From: Luteitalea sp. TBR-22
GTDB taxonomy: Bacteria; Acidobacteriota; Vicinamibacteria; Vicinamibacterales; Vicinamibacteraceae
Assembly: GCF_016865485.1 (NCBI RefSeq)
Contig: NZ_AP024452.1
Coordinates: forward strand, 6,036,501-6,100,500
DNA length: 64,000 bases
Direction: 5' to 3'
Every line of letters begins with the position of its first letter. Positions within the stretch are counted from its first letter, which is position 1. The notes under the pieces were generated by a model, which was not told the origin of the DNA, ran no database searches, and was given only the letters and a program-made list of their open reading frames with translations. This document shows positions 39,794 to 50,325 of the stretch, piece after piece. The translations under genes and the position numbers were made by a program.

Positions 39794-39866
39794 CCCCGAC
39801 TCCTCTGGGAAGCCGACCCGGATAACCCGCGGGCCGGACGAAGGAAACCATCAATTATGGATCACC

Positions 39867-39946
39867 GGGCACCGGGCACCGGGCACCGGGCACCGGGCAC
39901 CGGGCACCGGGCACCGGGCACCGGGCACCGGGCACCGGCCACCGGG
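39867..39946. repeat. Tandem heptamer array (GGGCACC)x11
   Basis: Ten to eleven near-perfect tandem GGGCACC units, the longest uniform array in the window. It lies in the 314-bp spacer between lpdA and the response-regulator gene. Confidence 0.97.
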
Positions 39947-39973
39947 GTTGGGGGCTGGGGCCCTTCGCCCTCC

Positions 39974-40090
39974 CCCTGCCCCCTTCCGCCTTCCCGCCTT
40001 CTGCCTTCCCGCCTTCCGCCTTCTCCCTTCCTCCTTCCCCTGAGCCGTGAGCCCTGAGCCCTGAGCCGTTCGCCGTTCGCCGTTCGGCGT
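39974..40090. repeat. Pyrimidine-rich heptamer tract changing to GAGCCNT and CGTTCGC units
   Basis: CTTCCGC, CTTCCCG and CTTCTGC units run into GAGCCGT/GAGCCCT units and end in CGTTCGC units, each with a 7-bp step. The tract ends 18 bp before the regulator gene. Confidence 0.8.
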
Positions 40091-40107
40091 TGAATAATGA
40101 CCCCGCC

Positions 40108-41496
<1,389 letters not shown>

Positions 41497-41655
41497 GCCG
41501 GCCAATTGCTACCTTTTGGTGTCGGCGCCCCGTCAGGATTGCTGTAACTGCGAACACTCGGGGCACGCTGGTTGGCAGAAATCGCGCTCCATGGCCGGGC
41601 CGTCCCGGCGTGATCCGCCCCGGATGTCCAGAAACTCGTGCCACTTGCCGAAATA

Positions 41656-41669
41656 CCAACCATGGTTGG
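41656..41669. promoter_or_regulatory. Perfect 14-bp palindrome CCAACCATGGTTGG
   Basis: It lies 7 bp upstream of the candidate sigma-54 promoter. It may be a regulator site, although NtrC-type activators normally bind farther upstream. Confidence 0.45.
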
Positions 41670-41674
41670 CTCGG

Positions 41675-41691
41675 CTGGCATTCATCTGGCA
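41675..41691 (+). promoter_or_regulatory. Candidate sigma-54 promoter CTGGCA-N8-TGGCA
   Basis: GG (41677-41678) and GC (41689-41690) have the required 10-bp separation, with CTGGCA at -24 and TGGCA at -12. Initiation would fall at about 41702, just before the chosen ATG of the radical SAM gene. Confidence 0.5.
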
Positions 41692-41706
41692 ACTCCGGCG
41701 GCCGCG

Positions 41707-43134
41707 ATGCGCGCGTCCCGCTTCACCCTGTCCACGCCGCTCCCGGGGTCCGACGAGGTCTTCCTCTTCAACACCCTGACCGAGAGCCAGATCGTCGTCT
41801 CCCCCGACGTGGTCGACCTGATCGCCCGGGTCGACCGGGGCGAGCCGGTCGCCGGCACACGCACCACCCGCGAAGCCATCCGTCAACTGGCCGAGCTCGG
41901 GTTCCTGGTGGAGAGCGCCGAGGCCGAGCAGCGGGCCCTCGAGGCCTTCTTTCGCGACATCCGTGAGGACGCCACCCACCTGCGGGTCACGGTGCTGACG
42001 ACCCTGCAGTGCAATTTCGCGTGTGACTACTGCATCCAGGGCGACCACCAGGACCACGACGCCCCCGAAGGCCGGATGTCGCTGGACACGGCGGCGCGCG
42101 TCGGCGACTGGATCGAGGCGCGGCTCGACGCCCTGGGCTCGCCCCGCTTCACCCTGACGTTCTTCGGTGGTGAGCCGCTGCTGAACCTGCCGGTGGTGTA
42201 CGCCCTGGCCGAGCGGGCCTGGACGGCCTGTCAGGCCCGCGGGGTCGTCATGACCATCAGCATCATCACCAACGGCCTGCTCCTCACCGAGGCCGTCGTC
42301 GACCGCCTGCTGCCGTTCGGGCTGGCCGGCGTCAAGGTGACCCTCGACGGCGACCGCGCCACGCACGACAGGCTGCGGCCGTTGCGCGGCGGCCAGGGCA
42401 CCTTCGACCGCATCATCGCGAACCTGCGCGCCGTGGCCCCGAAGGTGCGCGTCAGCCTCGGCGGCAACTTCGACGTCGAGAGCGTCGCCTCGTACCCGGC
42501 ACTGCTCGAGTTCCTGCGCGCCGAGCCGTTCGCCGACCGGATCGCGAAGCTGACCTTCAAGCCGATCATCCGTGGACCGAAGACGGGCCGGGCGCTGGCC
42601 TCGTCGGCCGTCGACGGCCGACGCGTGATTCCACTGGTCGAGGCCGACCGGCAACCCGCTCTCGGCGGCACGTGCATGACCGCTGCCGGCGCCGGGTCGG
42701 GCTCGACGCCCTGCGACACCTGCGGCCTGGCAGACGACGCCATGGGCCGGCTGCGCGAGCAGACGCTCGCGGCCGGGTTCCACACGCCCGATGGCGTCCA
42801 CATGGGCCCCTGCGAACTGCATCGTCGCCACGCCAGCACCATCGGCCCCGACGGCTCGCTCTATCCGTGCCCGGGCTTCACCGGCGAGCCCGGCCTTCGC
42901 GTCGGTCACGTGCGCGCGGAGCGCCACGACGCGCACCGTGCGACGCGCGAGCGTTTCGACAGGCACGCGCCCTGGCGCGCCTGCGGCGACTGTGCGCTGG
43001 TGCCGGTGTGCGGCGGCGGGTGCTCGGTGGCCGCGCACAACGAGCAGGGCGACCTCGACCTCCCCAACTGCCACAAGCCGGCGATGCTCGCCGCGCTTCC
43101 GGCACTGGCCGCGGCAGCGGCCGTTCCCGCCTGA
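41707..43134 (+). CDS. Radical SAM/SPASM peptide-modifying enzyme
   Basis: A 475-residue enzyme. Residues ~1-85 (RFTLSTPLPGSDEVFLFNTLTESQIVV) are the N-terminal domain common in peptide maturases. The radical SAM cluster is C-x3-C-x2-C at 102, 106 and 109 (CNFACDYC), with FFGGEPLLN next. The C-terminus has a full SPASM domain (C-x13-G-x4-C, then CGDCALVPVCGGGC and a last Cys), binding two extra Fe-S clusters. An unusual extra C-x12-C-x2-C (CMTAAGAGSGSTPCDTC) precedes it. Such enzymes crosslink or epimerise short peptides; one is encoded 41 bp downstream. The frame can extend to 41638, but that overlaps the promoter. Confidence 0.92.
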   Translation: MRASRFTLSTPLPGSDEVFLFNTLTESQIVVSPDVVDLIARVDRGEPVAGTRTTREAIRQLAELGFLVESAEAEQRALEAFFRDIREDATHLRVTVLTTLQCNFACDYCIQGDHQDHDAPEGRMSLDTAARVGDWIEARLDALGSPRFTLTFFGGEPLLNLPVVYALAERAWTACQARGVVMTISIITNGLLLTEAVVDRLLPFGLAGVKVTLDGDRATHDRLRPLRGGQGTFDRIIANLRAVAPKVRVSLGGNFDVESVASYPALLEFLRAEPFADRIAKLTFKPIIRGPKTGRALASSAVDGRRVIPLVEADRQPALGGTCMTAAGAGSGSTPCDTCGLADDAMGRLREQTLAAGFHTPDGVHMGPCELHRRHASTIGPDGSLYPCPGFTGEPGLRVGHVRAERHDAHRATRERFDRHAPWRACGDCALVPVCGGGCSVAAHNEQGDLDLPNCHKPAMLAALPALAAAAAVPA

Positions 43135-43175
43135 CCGGCAGCCGCCGGCCAGCGTTCCCTCAAAGGAGTGCATCC

Positions 43176-43271
43176 GTGACCATTCGAGTCGTGCAGCGTG
43201 GGTCCCTGAAGGACAAGCCGTATTGCCCGTTCCTGATCGACGTCCCGATCGAGGAGGTGCCCGAGAAGTAG
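43176..43271 (+). CDS. 31-residue peptide, putative precursor for the radical SAM enzyme
   Basis: GTG start with AAAGGAG at 43162-43168, 7 bp upstream, and a TAG stop. The peptide begins MTIRVVQRGSLKDK, then PYCPFLIDVP, and ends IEEVPEK. It has one Cys (17) next to the only Tyr (16), flanked by prolines, then a hydrophobic stretch and an acidic tail. Size, good ribosome site and position right after a SPASM maturase are those of a ribosomally made, modified peptide. The Cys, Tyr or Phe side chains are likely modification points; this is inference. I do not recognise the precursor family. Confidence 0.75.
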   Translation: MTIRVVQRGSLKDKPYCPFLIDVPIEEVPEK

Positions 43272-43299
43272 GCCGGACGCCCTGCGCGGACCCGCGGGA

Positions 43300-43318
43300 C
43301 CGCCCGTCGCCCGGGCGG
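43300..43318 (+). terminator. GC-rich hairpin after the peptide gene
   Basis: CCGCCCG-TCGCC-CGGGCGG, 28 bp past the peptide stop and without a T-run. It may stabilise the peptide mRNA end or partially terminate, raising peptide output over the downstream binding protein and kinase. Confidence 0.4.
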
Positions 43319-43389
43319 CCGGGGGACCGCCCCTCCGTTCTGCGGCATGGCGATCACCGCGGGCGCAGGTTCGTGATACAAGCAGCCAC

Positions 43390-43422
43390 GGCGAACCGGT
43401 CCTTCGACAGAGGAGGTTCGCC
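43390..43422 (+). promoter_or_regulatory. Inverted repeat GGCGAACC...GGTTCGCC before the binding-protein gene
   Basis: Perfect 8-bp arms with a 17-nt loop, ending 9 bp before the GTG start. The loop and right arm include GAGGAGG, so a stem could hide a ribosome site, or the DNA could be an operator. Confidence 0.4.
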
Positions 43423-43431
43423 GATCGCTGC

Positions 43432-44955
43432 GTGATCGCGCCTTTCGATTGCTCACCCGGCGCTCGCGCCGACACGCGACCAGCCGCGCTCCTCGCGGTG
43501 GCGTGCGCGTCGGTGTGCCTCATCACCGTCGCGACGGGCGCGTGCCGCCGCGACGATCCCGTGCGCCCGCGGCCGGCGGCGTCGCAGCACGTCACCATCG
43601 CCATTCCGAGCCTCGTGGCTCCCGACACTCCGCTGCTGTTCGTCCTGACGCAGACACGCCTGATCAGGCTCGACGCCACGGGCGTCGAGCAGCCGGCCTT
43701 CATCGAGCGATGGTCGTCATCGCCCGACGGCCTCACCTGGACGCTCGTGGTGCGACCCGACGAGCGGCTGCACGACGGCACGCAGGCCACCGCGGCAGAC
43801 GTCGCGGCACGCATCCGCGAGGCCGCGGCCTCACCCGACGCCGGCCCCGGCCTGTGGCCCGTGGTCGGGGTGGACGCGCTCGACGACCATCGGGTGCGCA
43901 TCCGCCTGAAGGAGCCGACGAGCCTGCTGCTCGAGACCCTGGCGCTCGCCGAGGCGCTTCCGGCCGGCGCGTACCGCAACGTCGCCCCGCCTGATGCGCC
44001 GCCCTCCCTGCGAGCCGTGGTTCGCGCCGGCGAGCCCGCGCCGGCCATCGGCTCGGTCGACATCAAGCGATACGACACGCCGCGCGCCGCCGTCGTGGCG
44101 CTGCTGCGCGGCGAGGTGGACGTCCTGTACGAGGTGCCGGGCGAGGCCCGCGCTCTGCTGGACGCCGACGGCGGCGTCCGCATCTACCCACACGTGAAGC
44201 CGTACGTGCTGACGCTCGGCCTCAACCACCGCCATCCCCTGCTCGCCCGGCGCGAGGTGCGGCTGGCGTTGAACGCTGCCATCGACAGGCGCGCCCTCGT
44301 GACCTCCGTGCCGGGTGGCGTGGGCGTGCCCGCCGCCGACCTGCTGTGGCACCAGCACTGGTCGCGACCGCACGCCGACGACGGCCGCCTGCTCCGCCAC
44401 GACCCGGCCGCCGCGCGGGCCTGGCTCGACTCGGTGGGACTGACGCGACGCGTCGACCCCGGCGGCGTGGTGAAGCCCCGCCTGACACTGCGCTGCCTCG
44501 TGCTCGACGAGCCGCTCTCGGTCCAGGTCGCGGCGCGCCTGCAGCAGGCCTATGACGACGTGGGCATCGCGCTCGACCTGGAGGCGGTGTCGCTCGAGCA
44601 GTTGCTGACCCGCCTGGAGACCGGCAAGTTCGAGACGTTCGTGTCCCCGATGGTCAGTGGCTACGGGATGGGCATGGCGTACCTGCAATACGGGCCGCAC
44701 GACCGCCCGCGCATCGTCGACGATGGATACGTCGCCGGGGCGCGTGCCTCGGAGGCCATCCGTCGCGCCTCGTCGCGCGAGGCACTCGCCGCCGCGATCG
44801 CCGACCTGCATCGCGTGCTCATCGACGACCCGCCCGCGGTGCACCTCTTCTGGCAAGAGACCAGCCGTGCGGTGGGCCGGCGCATCACGGTCCCTGCCGA
44901 GGCCGGCGACGTGCTCGCCTCCCTGCCGCGCTGGGGCGTGGTGACGCCCCCATGA
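43432..44955 (+). CDS. Peptide-type (family 5) extracellular solute-binding lipoprotein
   Basis: A 507-residue protein with an export signal and probable lipid Cys (VATGACRRDD; the lipobox is weak). It follows the SBP_bac_5 plan of oligopeptide-binding proteins: FIERWSSSPDGLTWTLVVRPDERLHDGT at the start, VDVLYEVPGE, and RREVRLALNAAIDRRALV in the middle. No permease or ATPase accompanies it. It overlaps the histidine kinase by 4 bp (ATGA), so it probably presents a ligand to that kinase, perhaps the modified peptide. GTG 43432 is the only start that keeps the whole signal. Confidence 0.85.
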   Translation: MIAPFDCSPGARADTRPAALLAVACASVCLITVATGACRRDDPVRPRPAASQHVTIAIPSLVAPDTPLLFVLTQTRLIRLDATGVEQPAFIERWSSSPDGLTWTLVVRPDERLHDGTQATAADVAARIREAAASPDAGPGLWPVVGVDALDDHRVRIRLKEPTSLLLETLALAEALPAGAYRNVAPPDAPPSLRAVVRAGEPAPAIGSVDIKRYDTPRAAVVALLRGEVDVLYEVPGEARALLDADGGVRIYPHVKPYVLTLGLNHRHPLLARREVRLALNAAIDRRALVTSVPGGVGVPAADLLWHQHWSRPHADDGRLLRHDPAAARAWLDSVGLTRRVDPGGVVKPRLTLRCLVLDEPLSVQVAARLQQAYDDVGIALDLEAVSLEQLLTRLETGKFETFVSPMVSGYGMGMAYLQYGPHDRPRIVDDGYVAGARASEAIRRASSREALAAAIADLHRVLIDDPPAVHLFWQETSRAVGRRITVPAEAGDVLASLPRWGVVTPP

Positions 44956-46661
44956 TCCCGATCACCCGCCGGATGGCACTGCTGGTCACCACCGCTGCGC
45001 TCCTCCCGCTCCTCATCTTCGGCATCGTCGCCGGGGTGACGCTGCGCGCGACGACGCGGAGCTCGGTGCTCGAGTCGCACGCCGCCATCGCCGAGCGCGC
45101 TGCCGAGGCGATCGGCCTGTACCTGCAGTCCACCGAGCAGATCGTGCGATCGGCCGCGTCATACATCGTCGGCACGGGCCTCACCCGCGCGCAGCAGGAT
45201 CGCGTGCTGTGGAATCACGTGATGATGGAGCGGCAGATCCGGTCGCTCACGCTGTACGACGCGGAGGGGCAGCCGGTGGCCAGCAGCCTCCTGACGGGCA
45301 CGCCGCCGCCGCTGCCGGCGCGGATCACCTCGGACTTCGCGCTGCTGCCGGTCGACCTCGACGCCGACGAGTTGCCGCGCACGCGGATGACGCTGCGCCT
45401 CAGCGAACCGCTCGCGCCGTATCTCGTCGCCGAGCTGAAGCTCGAGGAATTGTGGCGGGTGGTGGATGGGGTCACCGTCGGCGCCAGGGGCCGCGCGCTC
45501 CTGGTGGACGAGTCGGGACGCATCATCGCCGACGGCCGGCGCGGCGGCAAGGCGCGCATCGCGCGGGGCGAGCGCCTCGGCGATCATCCGCTGGCGGCGA
45601 GCGGCACCCCCGGCTCGGCGCGCTACGTCCGCGGCGACGGCGTGGAGGTGCTGGCGGTGTCGAGCGCGCCCATGGCGCTCGGGTGGCGCGTGATCGTCGA
45701 GCAGCCGGCTGAGGACGCCTTCCGTCCGGCGCGGGACCTCGAGCGCCAGTTGCTGCTCTTCGTGACGCTGGCGCTGCTGGCCAACATCGCCATCGGCATC
45801 GCGGCGGGTCGATCGCTGCTGCGGCCGATCTCGGACCTGCTCGCGGGCATCCGCGCCATCGGCGAAGGTCGCCTCGACGAGCGCGTGCACATCACGCGCG
45901 ACGACGAGTTCCGGCTGCTCGGCGAGGCGTTCAACGCGACGGCCGACAAGCTCGGCGAGCTGCAGCAGTCGGCGATCCGGCAGGAGCGTCAGGCGATGTT
46001 CGGCCGCATCGCCGCCGGCCTGGTGCACGACCTCTCGCATCCCATCCAGAACATCAACAACAACTGCAAGCTCGTGCTGCAGATGCACGACGACCCGGAG
46101 TACCGCGCGACGTTCGCGCGGCTGGTCAAGCGCGAGTTCTCGACCATCCAGCGCACGTTCGAGGACCTGCGCAACCTGGCGCGGCCGATCCCGCTCGAGC
46201 GCTTCGCGGTCGACACGGGCAAGCTGGTGCTCGACGTGGTCGAGCGGATGCAGGCGCAGGCGTCGGTGGCCGGCGTCACGGTCGCCGCCGGCGTCCTGCC
46301 GTCGCAGCCGGTCTACGTCGAGGGCGATCTCTTCGCGCTCGGCCGCGTGCTGCGCAACCTGGTGCTGAACGCGCTGCAGGCCACGCCGCCGGGCGGGCGC
46401 GTGTGGATCGAGGTGTCGGGCGACGAGCGACGCGCGACGATCAGCGTGAACGACACGGGCTGCGGCATCCCGGCCGATCGCGTGCAGGCCATCTTCGAGG
46501 ACTTCGTCACGACCAAGCGCCGCGGCCTCGGGCTCGGCCTGGCGATCTCGCGGAAGGTGGTGGAGCAACTCGGCGGATCGATTTCCGTCGAGAGCGTGGT
46601 CGGCGAGGGCAGCTCCTTCACGCTCTCGTTCCCCCGCCTGACGCGCATCACCACGGGATGA
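44952..46661 (+). CDS. Membrane sensor histidine kinase with periplasmic Cache-like domain
   Basis: A 569-residue kinase: TM1 (~10-30), a periplasmic double-Cache-like region (~31-265), TM2 (~266-286), HAMP (~287-340), a dimerisation helix with phospho-acceptor His359 (LVHDLSHPIQNINNN, where HELxxP is more common) and a HATPase domain (NLVLNALQATPPGG as N-box, DTGCGIP, GLGLGLAISRKVVEQLGG). Translation is coupled to the binding protein. The likely phosphotransfer partner is the NtrC-type regulator at 40108-41496, which encloses the radical SAM and peptide genes between the two signalling genes. Confidence 0.92.
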   Translation: MIPITRRMALLVTTAALLPLLIFGIVAGVTLRATTRSSVLESHAAIAERAAEAIGLYLQSTEQIVRSAASYIVGTGLTRAQQDRVLWNHVMMERQIRSLTLYDAEGQPVASSLLTGTPPPLPARITSDFALLPVDLDADELPRTRMTLRLSEPLAPYLVAELKLEELWRVVDGVTVGARGRALLVDESGRIIADGRRGGKARIARGERLGDHPLAASGTPGSARYVRGDGVEVLAVSSAPMALGWRVIVEQPAEDAFRPARDLERQLLLFVTLALLANIAIGIAAGRSLLRPISDLLAGIRAIGEGRLDERVHITRDDEFRLLGEAFNATADKLGELQQSAIRQERQAMFGRIAAGLVHDLSHPIQNINNNCKLVLQMHDDPEYRATFARLVKREFSTIQRTFEDLRNLARPIPLERFAVDTGKLVLDVVERMQAQASVAGVTVAAGVLPSQPVYVEGDLFALGRVLRNLVLNALQATPPGGRVWIEVSGDERRATISVNDTGCGIPADRVQAIFEDFVTTKRRGLGLGLAISRKVVEQLGGSISVESVVGEGSSFTLSFPRLTRITTG

Positions 46662-46710
46662 GCACCACGCGGCAGGCGATCGTTGCCGATCGCCGTCGCC
46701 GCGTCCGGGC

Positions 46711-46748
46711 AAAACCAAAAGCCCCGCGGGACGCGCGTCCGGCGGGGC
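46711..46748 (-). terminator. Rho-independent terminator of the HU gene
   Basis: On the minus strand a stem of GCCCCGC/GCGGGGC type with inner GGACGCGCGTCC pairing is followed by TTTTGGTTTT. It lies between the convergent kinase and HU genes. Confidence 0.8.
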
Positions 46749-46796
46749 CTGGTCCGTTCGGTCGGCGTCGCGCGGGGCGCGCCGGGCTCGCGGGTG

Positions 46797-47096
46797 CTAC
46801 TTGCGCGGCATCACGGCGTCCTTCATGGCCTTCACCACGGTCGCCTTGACGCGCGTCTTGGCCGGGATCTTGATCGGCTCGCCGGTGGCAGGGTTGCGGC
46901 CCATGCGCGCCTTGCTCTTGCGCACCGACAACTTCACCACACCGGGGAGCGTGAACTCGCCCGAGCGCTTGAGTTCCTTCTCGGCAAGCGCCGCGAGCTC
47001 GTCGAACCAGTCACGCACCTCGGTGCGCTTCACCTCGAACTTGTCAGCGAAGAACGCAAAGAGTGCCGACTTGGTCATCTTCTGGGCCTGGGCCAT
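46797..47096 (-). CDS. HU-family DNA-binding protein
   Basis: A 99-residue nucleoid protein. The DNA-arm signature GRNPATGEPIKIPAKTRVK and the preceding KRSGEFTLPGVVKLSVRKSKAR are diagnostic of HU/IHF; the arm contains the intercalating Pro. The N-terminus (MTKSALFAFFADKFEVKRTEVRDWFDELA) is somewhat divergent from standard HU. The start is ATG 47094-47096 with GGGGGAG 8 bp upstream; an upstream ATG (47121-47123) lacks such a site. Confidence 0.93.
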   Translation of the reverse strand: MAQAQKMTKSALFAFFADKFEVKRTEVRDWFDELAALAEKELKRSGEFTLPGVVKLSVRKSKARMGRNPATGEPIKIPAKTRVKATVVKAMKDAVMPRK

Positions 47097-47253
47097 CCGC
47101 TTGTCTCCCCCCATTGCACGCACGCGATTTCTGAAGCGTGCCGCGAAGTCGTGGCGCGCGTGTCACGATTTCCGGCCAAAAACGCAATGGCGCCAATGCT
47201 AGCGACACGCGGAGCACGTGTCAATTGGGCGGGAATGGCCAAACTGCGCGATG

Positions 47254-47259
47254 TACACT
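47254..47259 (+). promoter_or_regulatory. -10 box TACACT of queF
   Basis: TACACT ends 6 bp before ATG 47266 and overlaps the alternative upstream ATG (47251), which supports 47266 as the start of a leaderless transcript. Confidence 0.5.
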
Positions 47260-47265
47260 CCATTC

Positions 47266-47613
47266 ATGGCCAGTGGCGGCATCGAGACCTTTCCGAACCC
47301 GCGTCCAGGACGTCCGTACGAGATCGACACCCGTTGTCCCGAGTTCACGTCGATGTGCCCAAAGACGGGCTTGCCCGACTTCGGCGAGATCCGCATCACG
47401 TACGTTCCCGACGCGACCTGCATCGAGCTGAAGTCGCTCAAGTACTACCTCCTCGAGTTCCGCAACAAGGGCGTCTTCTACGAGGCGCTCACCAACCAGA
47501 TCCTCGATGATCTCGTGGCGGCCTGCGCGCCCGTGCGCATGACCGTGGTGGGCGACTTCACGCCGCGCGGCGGCATCCGCACGACGGTGACGGCGACGTA
47601 CACGAGGGACTGA
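47266..47613 (+). CDS. queF: NADPH-dependent 7-cyano-7-deazaguanine reductase (type I QueF)
   Basis: A 115-residue tunnel-fold enzyme that reduces preQ0 to preQ1 for queuosine tRNA modification. It has [17 protein letters not shown] (nucleophile Cys31, acid Asp38) and [16 protein letters not shown], the NADPH/QueF motif. The usual GQPDF reads GLPDF. Length is right for the unimodular form. No other queuosine genes or preQ1 riboswitch are seen nearby. Confidence 0.94.
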
Positions 47614-47635
47614 CGCGCGCCGGCCCTGGTGATCA

Positions 47636-47669
47636 GGGCTTGGGCCCTGGGCCTTGGGCCTTGGGCGTG
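47636..47669. repeat. Heptamer tract (GGGCCTT/GGGCCCT)
   Basis: Four to five TTGGGCC-type units between queF and the Smr gene. Confidence 0.85.
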
Positions 47670-47707
47670 CGACCTTCCGGCATTCCCGGCATTCCGGCAT
47701 CGCGGCA

Positions 47708-47971
47708 GTGTCAGACCCGCATCCCGTTCCGATCGGTCCGGAGTTCGATCTCCACTCGTTCGCGCCGCGCGACATCCCGGACGTGGTCGACGCCTACCTG
47801 CAGGAAGCGCATGCCCTCGGCCTGCGTGAGGTGCGCCTCGTCCACGGGCGCGGCATCGGCGTGCAGCGGGCGCGCGTGCAGCAGGTGCTGCACGCGCATC
47901 CGCTCGTTTCGTCGTATCGCGACGACCCGCGCGCCCACCTCGGCGCGACGCTGGCAACGTTGAGGGACTGA
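47708..47971 (+). CDS. Stand-alone Smr-domain protein
   Basis: An 87-residue protein consisting of one Smr domain, related to the MutS2 C-terminus. It has DLHSF (14-18), VVDAYLQEAHALGLREVRLVHGRGIG and the conserved HGRG (46-49). Smr domains bind or cleave nucleic acids, with known roles on collided ribosomes and in recombination control. The start is the GTG giving VSDPHPVPIGPEFDLH. It is convergent with the PEP-CTERM gene 21 bp downstream. Confidence 0.88.
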   Translation: MSDPHPVPIGPEFDLHSFAPRDIPDVVDAYLQEAHALGLREVRLVHGRGIGVQRARVQQVLHAHPLVSSYRDDPRAHLGATLATLRD

Positions 47972-47992
47972 ACGGGGTCGGAGCGCCCTCGC

Positions 47993-48919
47993 TCAGTTCC
48001 CTGTCGTGGAGCGACTCCGGCTCGAACGCGCGCGCGCGCCGAGCACGCACAGCGCGGCGCCCAGGAGTGCCAGGGCATGGGGCTCCGGCACCGGGGTCGG
48101 GCCGGTCGGCAGTTCGCTGGCCAGGACCACGCCGTCGGCATTGGCAAAGCGCGTCGGGATCAGCGATCCGAGGCGACCGTACAGTTCGATGTGGCCGGCG
48201 TACGGCCCACCGGGTGGGTTGTAGCTCTCCAGGGCCCCGACGTACCCCAGATCGGGGCGCTCCGCGAAGTAGAAGTAGTCGGCGTCTTCGGCAGGCGTCG
48301 GATTCGGCCAGTCGGGCCCGGTGACGTTCAGGCGCAGCGTGCCCGCGAAGGTGTGTGGCGTGGCGCTGTCGGAGAGCAGCCCGGTCACGCGGAACGAGAA
48401 GGCGCTTTCCGGATAGATGTAGGTCTGCGGGTTGCCGTTCGAGTCCGTGTACGGGAGGACCCCGAACCACCCGCCGTTGACGAACGTGAACGTGCCGAGC
48501 AGGAACTCCTGGCCGGGCCCGGTGACGACCTGCGTTGCCGCCGGCGTGAAGTTGACGCGGTTGACCGCATCCTTCGAACCGCCGAAGCTCTGCCAGAACT
48601 CGACGGTCGCCGCCGCCGCGCCGCTGGACGTGAGGTCGAGGGCGCCCATGCCGATGCCGGCCGAGGTGAACAGATCTCCGGGGTTGCCGGGCAAGGGCAC
48701 CCAGGCCTCGAGCGACCTCGGGGTGGTGTCCCCCTCGCGCTGGAACCGGGTGCTCACCTCGAAGGGGGGATTCCCTGGATACGTGTGAGACCACGTGGGT
48801 CCGGTGTAGCCGAGGAACCCGCCGCTGAAGCTGATGGTCGTGCCGCGGGCCGTTCCTGCGGTGACTCCCATCGCTCCCATGGCGACCACCAGCGCAAGCC
48901 CTGCGTGACGTCTCCGCAT
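47993..48919 (-). CDS. PEP-CTERM sorted secreted protein
   Basis: A 308-residue protein with a signal peptide (MRRRHAGLALVVAMGAMGVTAG) and a PEP-CTERM tail: PVPEPHALALLGAALCVLGARARSSRSR, i.e. the PEP motif, a hydrophobic helix and basic residues. Exosortase cleaves such tails during export. The mature domain is beta-rich and Gly/Asn-rich and of unknown function. The ATG at 48917-48919 has GGAGGG 6 bp upstream. No exosortase gene is in the window. Confidence 0.88.
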   Translation of the reverse strand: MRRRHAGLALVVAMGAMGVTAGTARGTTISFSGGFLGYTGPTWSHTYPGNPPFEVSTRFQREGDTTPRSLEAWVPLPGNPGDLFTSAGIGMGALDLTSSGAAAATVEFWQSFGGSKDAVNRVNFTPAATQVVTGPGQEFLLGTFTFVNGGWFGVLPYTDSNGNPQTYIYPESAFSFRVTGLLSDSATPHTFAGTLRLNVTGPDWPNPTPAEDADYFYFAERPDLGYVGALESYNPPGGPYAGHIELYGRLGSLIPTRFANADGVVLASELPTGPTPVPEPHALALLGAALCVLGARARSSRSRSTTGN

Positions 48920-48962
48920 CGACACCCTCCCGGGTTGACGGCCGACCGGAAAGCCGGCCGAC

Positions 48963-49130
48963 CCGACGTGGAGTGGTCGTGGCAGCCGATTTCGTGACAG
49001 CCCGCCGTCGGGCAACTTCAACAGCTTCAGCCCGAGCCCCGACGGCACGAAGATCGCCGCGAGCACGCCCACCATGGCGAAGACCGAGGTGTGGGGCCTC
49101 GACGTGATGGCGCTCCTCGCGCAGCGGTAG
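48963..49130 (+). pseudogene. C-terminal remnant of a PD40/TolB-propeller protein
   Basis: An open frame ending at TAG 49130 encodes NFNSFSPSPDGTKIAAST followed by MAKTEVWGLD and ALLAQR. SPDGTKIA is a PD40 repeat, and KTEVW-L-D is a frequent ending of propeller proteins, often fused to Ser/Thr kinases. There is no start codon or upstream part. It lies 90 bp from the insertion sequence, suggesting that recombination removed the rest. Confidence 0.55.
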
Positions 49131-49305: not shown

Positions 49306-50325
49306 ATGGACCATGTTGCAATCGATCTCGGCGGAAGGGAATCCCAGATTTGCGTGCGGCGGCCCGACGGGACCGTCGTCGAGGAGCGGCGGCTGCGGAC
49401 GCACGAGGTGCCGCGGTACCTGGGCGAGCGGCCCGGCAGCCGAGTGATTGTCGAGACGTGCAGTGAGGCCTTCTGGGTGGCCGACGCGGCACGGGCGGCC
49501 GGGCATGAGGTGCGGGTGGTGCCGGCGACCCTGGCGCCGACCCTGGGCGTGGGGGCGCGCCGGATGAAGACGGACCGGCGTGATGCGCAGGTGCTCAGCG
49601 AGGTGTCCTGCCGCATCGACCTGCCGTCGGTGCATATCCCGAGCGCCGAGGCGCGGGCGGCCAAGACGCTCTGCGGCATGCGCGACGGGCTGGTGCGCAG
49701 TCGCACGCTCCTGCTCAATACCGTGCGCGGCTGGCTGCGGACGCAGGGCCGCCGGCTGGCGAGTGGCAGCGTGCACACCTTCGGGGCGCGCGTCCGCGCC
49801 GCGGTAGGCGAGCCCCTCCCGAGCTACGTGGCCCGGCAGCTGCAGCTGCTGGAGCACCTGCATGCCGCCATCGCGGACGCCGACCGCGAGGTGACGGCCT
49901 GGGCCACGGGCGACCCGGTCGCGCGCCGCTTGCTGACGGTCCCCGGAGTCGGCACGGTGACCGCCGTGCGGTTTGTGGCGGCGCTCGACGACCACACGCG
50001 CTTCGACGGCGCGCACGCGGTGGAGGCGTATGTCGGGCTGGTGCCCGGCCAGGACTCGCGTGGCGCGCGGGCGCGTGACCTGGGGATTACCCAAGCGGGG
50101 GCCCGCAGCCTGCACTGGTGCCTCGTCCAGGCCGCGCACTGCGCGAAACGGACGCTGAAGCCGGGGCCGCTCCGCGACTGGGTCGACGCCGTGCAGCACC
50201 GGCGCGGGCGCCAGGTCGCCGTCGTGGCCTTGGCGCGCAAGTTGACCGGCATCCTGTATGCGATCTGGCGGGATGGCACCCGCTTCGACCCGCACCGGAC
50301 CAACGCCGCGCCGCTGGCCGGGTAA
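49306..50325 (+). CDS. IS110-family DEDD transposase
   Basis: A 339-residue recombinase. The RuvC-like domain gives the four acidic residues Asp7 (AIDLGG), Glu50 (VIVETCSE), Asp90 and Asp93 (MKTDRRDA). The Transposase_20 domain has LLTVPGVGTVTAVRFVAAL and YVGLVPGQDSRGARARDLGITQAGARSLHW with the conserved Ser. GAGAGGAG precedes the ATG. All catalytic residues are intact, so the element may be active. Enzymes of this family use a structured RNA from the element to choose targets. Confidence 0.94.
   Translation: MDHVAIDLGGRESQICVRRPDGTVVEERRLRTHEVPRYLGERPGSRVIVETCSEAFWVADAARAAGHEVRVVPATLAPTLGVGARRMKTDRRDAQVLSEVSCRIDLPSVHIPSAEARAAKTLCGMRDGLVRSRTLLLNTVRGWLRTQGRRLASGSVHTFGARVRAAVGEPLPSYVARQLQLLEHLHAAIADADREVTAWATGDPVARRLLTVPGVGTVTAVRFVAALDDHTRFDGAHAVEAYVGLVPGQDSRGARARDLGITQAGARSLHWCLVQAAHCAKRTLKPGPLRDWVDAVQHRRGRQVAVVALARKLTGILYAIWRDGTRFDPHRTNAAPLAG

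Follow-up and report, generated by a model that had tools for sequence, protein, structure and literature searches.

The short frame at positions 43176 to 43271 (forward strand) of the window, i.e. of the whole stretch of 64,000 nucleotides of Luteitalea sp. TBR-22 that was analysed, is a real, conserved precursor peptide of 31 amino acids that belongs to a radical SAM enzyme. The peptide is inherited as a block with this enzyme, a substrate-binding lipoprotein and a histidine kinase, and therefore these Acidobacteriota may both make and sense a modified peptide signal. To the reading in which the frame is the precursor of a radical SAM RiPP with a single crosslink, within a make-and-sense module of this kind, we give just under an even chance.

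The precursor peptide and its conservation

The frame starts with GTG and translates as (M)TIRVVQRGSLKDKPYCPFLIDVPIEEVPEK, with a single Cys, the leader TIRVVQRG and the presumed core C17-PFLI-D22. The Shine-Dalgarno sequence AAAGGAG (43162 to 43168, forward strand) lies 7 nt before the GTG, and 41 nt separate the GTG from the stop of the enzyme gene, which ends at 43134; the ribosome-binding site, its spacing and the distance to the SPASM gene noted in an earlier, sequence-only reading of this DNA are thereby confirmed. Of 56 distinct loci, among them the window, 48 have short frames of the same peptide family, preceded by a Shine-Dalgarno sequence, behind the enzyme gene; the 56 are what remains, after reduction to distinct loci, of 52 loci with relatives of the enzyme, found when one genome was scanned for each species, of the loci from a search of the order, and of the window itself. 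In six of the eight loci that have no peptide (L021, L024, L044, L048, L051, L052) the contig ends inside the enzyme gene or about 100 nt past it; in the remaining two the peptide is interrupted (L029) or carries in-frame stops (L040). A profile for which one half of the 48 loci served as training set was run on six-frame translations; at E<1e-3 it recovered the peptide frame in 47 of the 48 held-out loci (2.6e-5 for the window), and only L004 was missed (E = 0.027). Seven of the 47 matches lay outside the position filter because the stop-to-stop frame begins upstream, and the peptide was confirmed inside all seven. Conservation of the frame behind the enzyme is far from chance: the proposal that it encodes a precursor-like peptide of the SPASM enzyme has held, and absence of the frame from relatives that keep the enzyme, named at that time as the observation that would speak against it, is not what was found. 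The dN/dS of the peptide (0.24 to 0.67 in six pairs within the genus) appears to reflect weak to moderate purifying selection, over few sites.

Two parts of the peptide are conserved. One is the leader, which is basic and strand-like (MKITVIKK); the other is a single Cys with Asp or Glu at +5. In a set of 53 Cys peptides, from which an identical copy in L004 was left out, the residue at +5 is Asp in 36, Glu in 15, and Ala or Thr in one each (L023 and L026); 51 of the 53 have a single Cys, as suits the single crosslink that had been anticipated. Since this set was partly collected with a motif filter, we repeated the count blind to the core, requiring only a leader-like start and a Shine-Dalgarno sequence: among 53 frames in 48 loci Cys is present in 52, and the +5 residue is acidic in 50 of these 52 (D 35, E 15, T 1, A 1). 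A count by start, Shine-Dalgarno sequence and length alone gives the same picture with no core filter. Asp and Glu at +5 alternate across the enzyme tree, and the residues between the Cys and this position differ (CPWIV, CISWV, CECFV, CDFYI). The residue before the Cys is Phe in 20, Tyr in 14 and another residue in 19 of the 53; within the genus it is Tyr in the window and Phe in the other three loci. An invariant Pro-Tyr-Cys beside a variable leader, named in the earlier reading as the pattern that would support a core there, was not recovered: Tyr precedes Cys in only these 14 peptides, the conserved core is the Cys with its acidic residue at +5, often in the form CPW-x-[VI]-[DE] (Pro at +1 in 39 of the 53), and the leader is conserved too.

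Eight loci also contain peptides that have no Cys, nine in total (for example GTLRPWLVDV), all with P[WF]LVD; two of them are in L004. In seven loci (L005, L009, L013, L014, L031, L035, L053) the extra PWLVDV peptide follows the enzyme and precedes the Cys peptides. L004 has five tandem precursor frames, about 12 to 890 nt past the enzyme stop, of which three near-identical ones have the Cys and two do not; the starts of the last four are spaced by about 160 nt. The Cys-less peptides suggest that P[WF]LVD may matter beyond the Cys.

In scans against the precursor families of NCBIfam and Pfam, which took 48 of the 53 Cys peptides, none scored over the cut-off, consistent with the earlier statement that the frame does not match the mycofactocin, SCIFF or PQQ precursors. 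Shuffled versions of 48 peptides gave one unrelated NCBIfam match, and other weak, unrelated matches of the peptides were to BssB_TutG, DUF6574 and BTRD1 in Pfam and to ArsI_CadI and PRK02113 in NCBIfam.

A block of genes behind a sigma-54 type site

The gene order is constant (regulator, enzyme, peptide, lipoprotein, kinase), with a sigma-54 site between the regulator and the enzyme. The link between precursor and enzyme drawn in the sequence-only reading stands, and that reading was incomplete in that the sigma-54 site, the lipoprotein, the kinase and the regulator were not mentioned. In the 55 loci compared with the window the regulator was found in 53, the lipoprotein in 45 and the kinase in 39, and the neighbouring HU, QueF, lpd and E2 genes in 35, 30, 40 and 37, respectively; in loci that have no regulator, lipoprotein, kinase or HU gene the contig or the fetched stretch ends before that gene. 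In five loci (L007, L009, L013, L016, L024) E2 adjoins the regulator and lpd was not found, so the left neighbour varies.

The regulator (40090 to 41496, forward strand) is an NtrC-type response regulator with a receiver, a sigma-54 AAA+ domain with GAFTGA, and a Fis-type HTH (Pfam Response_reg, 3.9e-28; Sigma54_activat, 8.5e-71; HTH_8, 4.6e-7); the GAFTGA loop is the part that contacts sigma-54. The regulator adjoins the enzyme in the relatives as well. Between lpd and the regulator (39855 to 40080) there are repeats that read PVPGARC in an antisense frame. The sigma-54 type -24/-12 site, TGGCATTCATCTGGCA (41676 to 41691, forward strand), is the longest stretch of identical alignment columns when the regions before the enzyme gene are compared among four members of the genus. 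Of 53 loci, 49 have a site scoring at least 12 of 16.5 in the 200 bp upstream of the enzyme, where Markov shuffles predict 9.6; at a threshold of at least 13.5 the number is 43 of 53, and the controls give 1 of 46 for the regulator, 1 of 43 for the lipoprotein, 0 of 39 for the kinase and 3 of 53 for the reverse strand. The genome also has rpoN. Just upstream of the site there is a perfect palindrome, CCAACCATGGTTGG (41656 to 41669); of the three genus mates, one retains it, and only in a loose form.

Beyond the peptide, the lipoprotein gene (43432 to 44955, forward strand) encodes a protein of the SBP_bac_5 family (PF00496, 2.7e-43) with the predicted fold of SBP family 5, in which Cys38 is invariant among 27 aligned proteins; a lipobox expression matched 25 of 43 lipoproteins, some at the wrong Cys, the start codons of lipoproteins and kinases having been chosen by rule. 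The kinase gene (44952 to 46661, forward strand) overlaps it by 4 nt. Among 38 loci the distance between the two genes is at most 30 nt in 36, and the same 4-nt overlap is seen in 19. The kinase is a dCache/HAMP histidine kinase: in the window protein HATPase_c, HAMP and dCache_1 are over the Pfam cut-off and HisKA is below it, and H359, N469, D501 and the G-box are kept in at least 95% of 39 sequences. With a gene for an SBP lipoprotein coupled to one for a membrane kinase with intact catalytic residues, the pair, together with the regulator, has the sequence features of a three-component sensing system. A strong hairpin potential precedes the lipoprotein gene (43260 to 43450, z -2.6), and in several relatives (e.g. 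L027, L033, L045) an inverted repeat and a T run are found where the signal peptide of the lipoprotein seems to begin, perhaps reflecting attenuation. Rfam has no match in 40000 to 48000. Farther along the window there are a protein with a PEP-CTERM-like end (47993 to 49075, reverse strand; 20.2 bits, just under the cut-off of 20.7) and an IS110/IS116-family transposase (49306 to 50325).

The inheritance of these genes as a unit is seen most clearly where they are missing. We compared 12 hand-picked genomes of the 96 enzyme-lacking ones in the order sample, and read the junction in five of them. In three (G019, G042, G044) lpd and the regulator are followed by HU and QueF, with the aligned ends of the regulator and HU about 125 to 200 nt apart, and the block that runs from the enzyme through peptide and lipoprotein to the kinase is absent as a whole. 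A kinase ortholog is present in 3 of 3 enzyme-bearing genomes vs 2 of the 12 enzyme-lacking ones, G022 and G020. In G022 the contig breaks off shortly before the start of the kinase gene. The locus of G020 is decaying: the enzyme is gone, the kinase is in two pieces in different frames, and a sigma-54-like site remains; most of the lipoprotein gene has been lost as well, given that the peptide remnant is about 200 nt away from the kinase. The remnant has Ser at the position of the Cys, as would be expected if the enzyme targets Cys, in a single case. A close ortholog of the regulator is kept in 6 of the 12 enzyme-lacking genomes, and the regulator is therefore not dedicated to the module, being either older than it or used beyond it. 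With a threshold of E<=1e-60, 66 of the 162 genomes sampled from the order encode the enzyme; in a sample of 396 genomes from across the phylum 18 do, and all 18 are within the order.

The content of the block bears on the suggestion, also made from the sequence, that the peptide might yield a cofactor in the style of PQQ or mycofactocin. Many loci do have a single short precursor per enzyme, which speaks for such a product; the tandem precursors of L004, the variable core, and the presence among the module genes of sensor genes instead of any dehydrogenase argue against it, so that this role, which found no support in the module, is very improbable.

The maturase and the putative crosslink

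The enzyme (41707 to 43134, forward strand; 475 aa) most likely starts at ATG 41707 and not at GTG 41638, because homology begins at the former. PF04055 and TIGR04085 are above their cut-offs (TIGR04085 with 48.2 bits of 27 needed) and Pfam SPASM is below (15.6 of 21.5). CxxxCxxC and the SPASM cysteine pattern are present (C102, C106, C109, C369, C388, C426, C429, C435, C439, C455), and these ten cysteines are invariant in 33 aligned sequences and kept in at least 97% of 50. This pattern and the conserved short precursor next to the gene together identify the enzyme, as judged from sequence, as a radical SAM/SPASM RiPP maturase with its precursor.

The best-scoring NCBIfam model, the geopeptide maturase TIGR04280, reaches 242 of 400 bits needed; none of 20 relatives and none of 199 genomes of the phylum has an enzyme that passes this cut-off, and membership in the geopeptide family was rejected. 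The next models, all below cut-off, are CefB, TIGR04463, FlmE/OhkG, PapB (123.4 of 340 bits) and the quinohemoprotein amine dehydrogenase maturase. TIGR04280-like enzymes of other Acidobacteriota families are 24 to 28% identical to the present one, and in the nine loci of 3 to 4 kb examined for them there is no relative of the lipoprotein, the kinase or the regulator. Four of the nine (L143, L144, L152, L153) contain Cys-rich small frames; three upstream frames in L153 begin M-x-W-[IV], and one in L144 begins MLNWIV.

The AlphaFold2 model of the enzyme (mean pLDDT 78.5, weak at residues 114-117 and 292-340) begins with three strands and three helices, a region that we read as a putative RRE. 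Its top Foldseek match is CteB (5why, E = 7.7e-16), the maturase of a SCIFF/ranthipeptide; upon structural alignment CteB (Z 25.2, 382 residues, rmsd 4.6) is tied with TigE (Z 25.0, 391 residues, rmsd 3.5), and ChlB, anSME and SuiB are also matched. CteB and TigE are aligned from the first residues on, with a warning of the aligner that residues before 80 are barely tested. Since TigE ties, the predicted CteB-like fold does not settle the reaction of the enzyme. With the SCIFF/ranthipeptide systems (CteA-CteB, and freyrasin, PapA-PapB) the present one shares a SPASM maturase with an N-terminal RRE-like region and a strand-like leader, and with CteA in particular a Cys whose acceptor is five residues on, CteB being among the nearest predicted folds. 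It differs from them in the one Cys instead of six, the acidic residue at +5, and the linked lipoprotein, kinase and sigma-54 site. Membership in the SCIFF family was rejected, with one Cys and not six in about 45 residues in 51 of the 53 peptides, and 92.5 of 425 bits for the enzyme against the SCIFF maturase TIGR03974.

As concerns the bond, a Cys with Asp or Glu at +5 would fit, by analogy, both the crosslink of CteA and Tte1186a and the chemistry of QhpD. According to passages of a review (PMC8326336), Cys32 is joined to Thr37 in the SCIFFs Tte1186a and CteA, the acceptor in CteA having later also been reported as Thr34, and QhpD makes Cys-Asp and Cys-Glu thioethers. A different bond, i.e. 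a sactionine to the residue at +4 or an aromatic C-C or C-O crosslink at the Trp or Phe at +2, would be compatible with either function of the product and is a serious alternative, though less likely than not. It draws on the Trp or Phe that is seen at +2 in 39 of 53 Cys peptides and the Val or Ile at +4 in 43; on the tie of TigE with CteB and the matches to ChlB and SuiB; and on the Cys-less peptides, which keep P[WF]LVD, are beyond explanation by a thioether, and stand against a Cys-thioether reading in general. Against it, the aromatic residue is missing or shifted in one clade (CITVV, CISWV, CVQMV) and any aromatic at +1 to +4 is found in 46 of 53 peptides, whereas the Cys and its acidic partner are nearly constant in the core-blind count.

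Signal or sensor-controlled product

In the make-and-sense reading the NtrC-type regulator would fire the sigma-54 promoter, such that maturase and peptide are made; the basic leader would dock as a strand on the N-terminal RRE-like domain of the maturase, and the maturase would join the lone Cys to the residue at +5, which is Asp in the window and Glu in others. The bond would most likely be a ranthipeptide-like thioether, made to a non-alpha carbon. Trimming and export of the product would probably fall to functions encoded elsewhere; no exporter or peptidase is found among the module genes, and in L026 a cut frame beyond QueF has a weak match to Peptidase_M14 (13.5 bits of 21.6). In the periplasm the lipoprotein would bind the product and, by way of the Cache kinase, pass the signal on to the neighbouring regulator, which would feed back on the operon. 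A more specific form, in which this is a Gram-negative quorum-type system with a Cys-Asp/Glu macrocycle as pheromone, a dedicated lipoprotein and Cache kinase, sigma-54 autoinduction and clade-specific ring residues, is plausible and is put forward only tentatively.

The lipoprotein is the fastest evolving component (mean identity 36%, against 48% for the sensor region of the kinase, 61% for the kinase domain and 62% for the enzyme). In partial Mantel comparisons over 36 loci, matched evolution of the peptide core is unsupported both with the lipoprotein (r = 0.15, p = 0.08) and with the sensor domain of the kinase (r = -0.26, p = 0.99). The absence of covariation with the sensor domain is in line with an alternative in which what lipoprotein and kinase detect comes from outside (a nutrient, a metal or a foreign peptide), the modified peptide being the output and not the ligand, and serving as an antagonist, a chelator or an intracellular factor. 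The same alternative gains from the lack of an exporter in the module and from the promiscuity of SBP family 5, which binds nickel chelates, opines and other ligands too; the nearest folds of the lipoprotein are mixed (NikZ, AgaA, AapF, DppA, others). It is opposed by the loss of lipoprotein and kinase along with enzyme and peptide, and by the absence of any immunity or export gene among the module genes, one of which a secreted antagonist would usually need. Given the unsupportive coevolution result and the mixed folds, we hold the make-and-sense reading at about evens, and regard a peptide that is output only as a serious possibility of lesser weight.

By sequence and by fold the lipoprotein has NikA and NikZ among its best matches, as would be the case if the peptide were a small metal-binding molecule whose metal complex is bound by a NikA-like lipoprotein. 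Weak methanobactin matches, seen for 8 of 48 peptides in Pfam (best E 0.03) and 3 of 48 in NCBIfam (best E 0.13) and for none of the 48 shuffled peptides in the NCBIfam scan, point in the same direction. All these matches are weak, however, and the unrelated Pfam family BssB_TutG scores better (2 of 48, best E 0.0017); the peptide has a single Cys and the module genes include no metal permease. A metallophore is thus improbable, and membership in the methanobactin family was rejected, the precursor matches being weak only and none significant.

The agr systems (AgrD/AgrC/AgrA) likewise combine a peptide, a kinase and a regulator in a single locus, and there is a superficial resemblance of the core; the present system differs in having no AgrB, a radical SAM enzyme instead, and no AgrD match over cut-off. 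That the frame is itself the precursor of an AgrD-type thiolactone pheromone, with an AgrD-like CxxxxD/E-P core and a ring closed by a protease, is scarcely credible. With 18.7 bits (E 0.0015) the L011 peptide falls just short of the 19 needed for TIGR04223, one L053 peptide reaches 13.7 bits (E 0.054), and two of 48 peptides weakly match Pfam AgrD (best E 0.074). In the NCBIfam scan, however, the match concerns 1 of 48 peptides and is below cut-off, the genome contains no AgrB, the partner enzyme is a radical SAM protein, and the leader of AgrD is unlike that of this family; membership in agr/AgrD was rejected.

The streptococcal RaS-RiPPs (streptide and others, with shp/rgg) share with the present system a radical SAM peptide tied to signalling, and differ from it in that regulation there is by Rgg, with the participation of SHP, whereas here we find a periplasmic lipoprotein, a kinase and a sigma-54 site. 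Streptide is described as being under Rgg regulation, and quorum sensing is listed for SCIFFs in a table of the same review (PMC8326336). The module is not described in the titles and abstract openings of the open-licence PMC papers that literature searches brought up, and is not among the acidobacterial clusters reported by type in passages of a further paper (PMC8692599).

Many RiPPs have no known function, as is said of RiPPs generally in a part of the review cited above (PMC8326336), and this is also the case for many radical SAM RiPPs. Here a sensor pair inherited in the same block and a sigma-54 site make both the chemistry, with one Cys and one acidic residue, and the function testable in few experiments. 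If the make-and-sense reading is true, the module would provide a candidate for peptide signalling in an order that has received little study.
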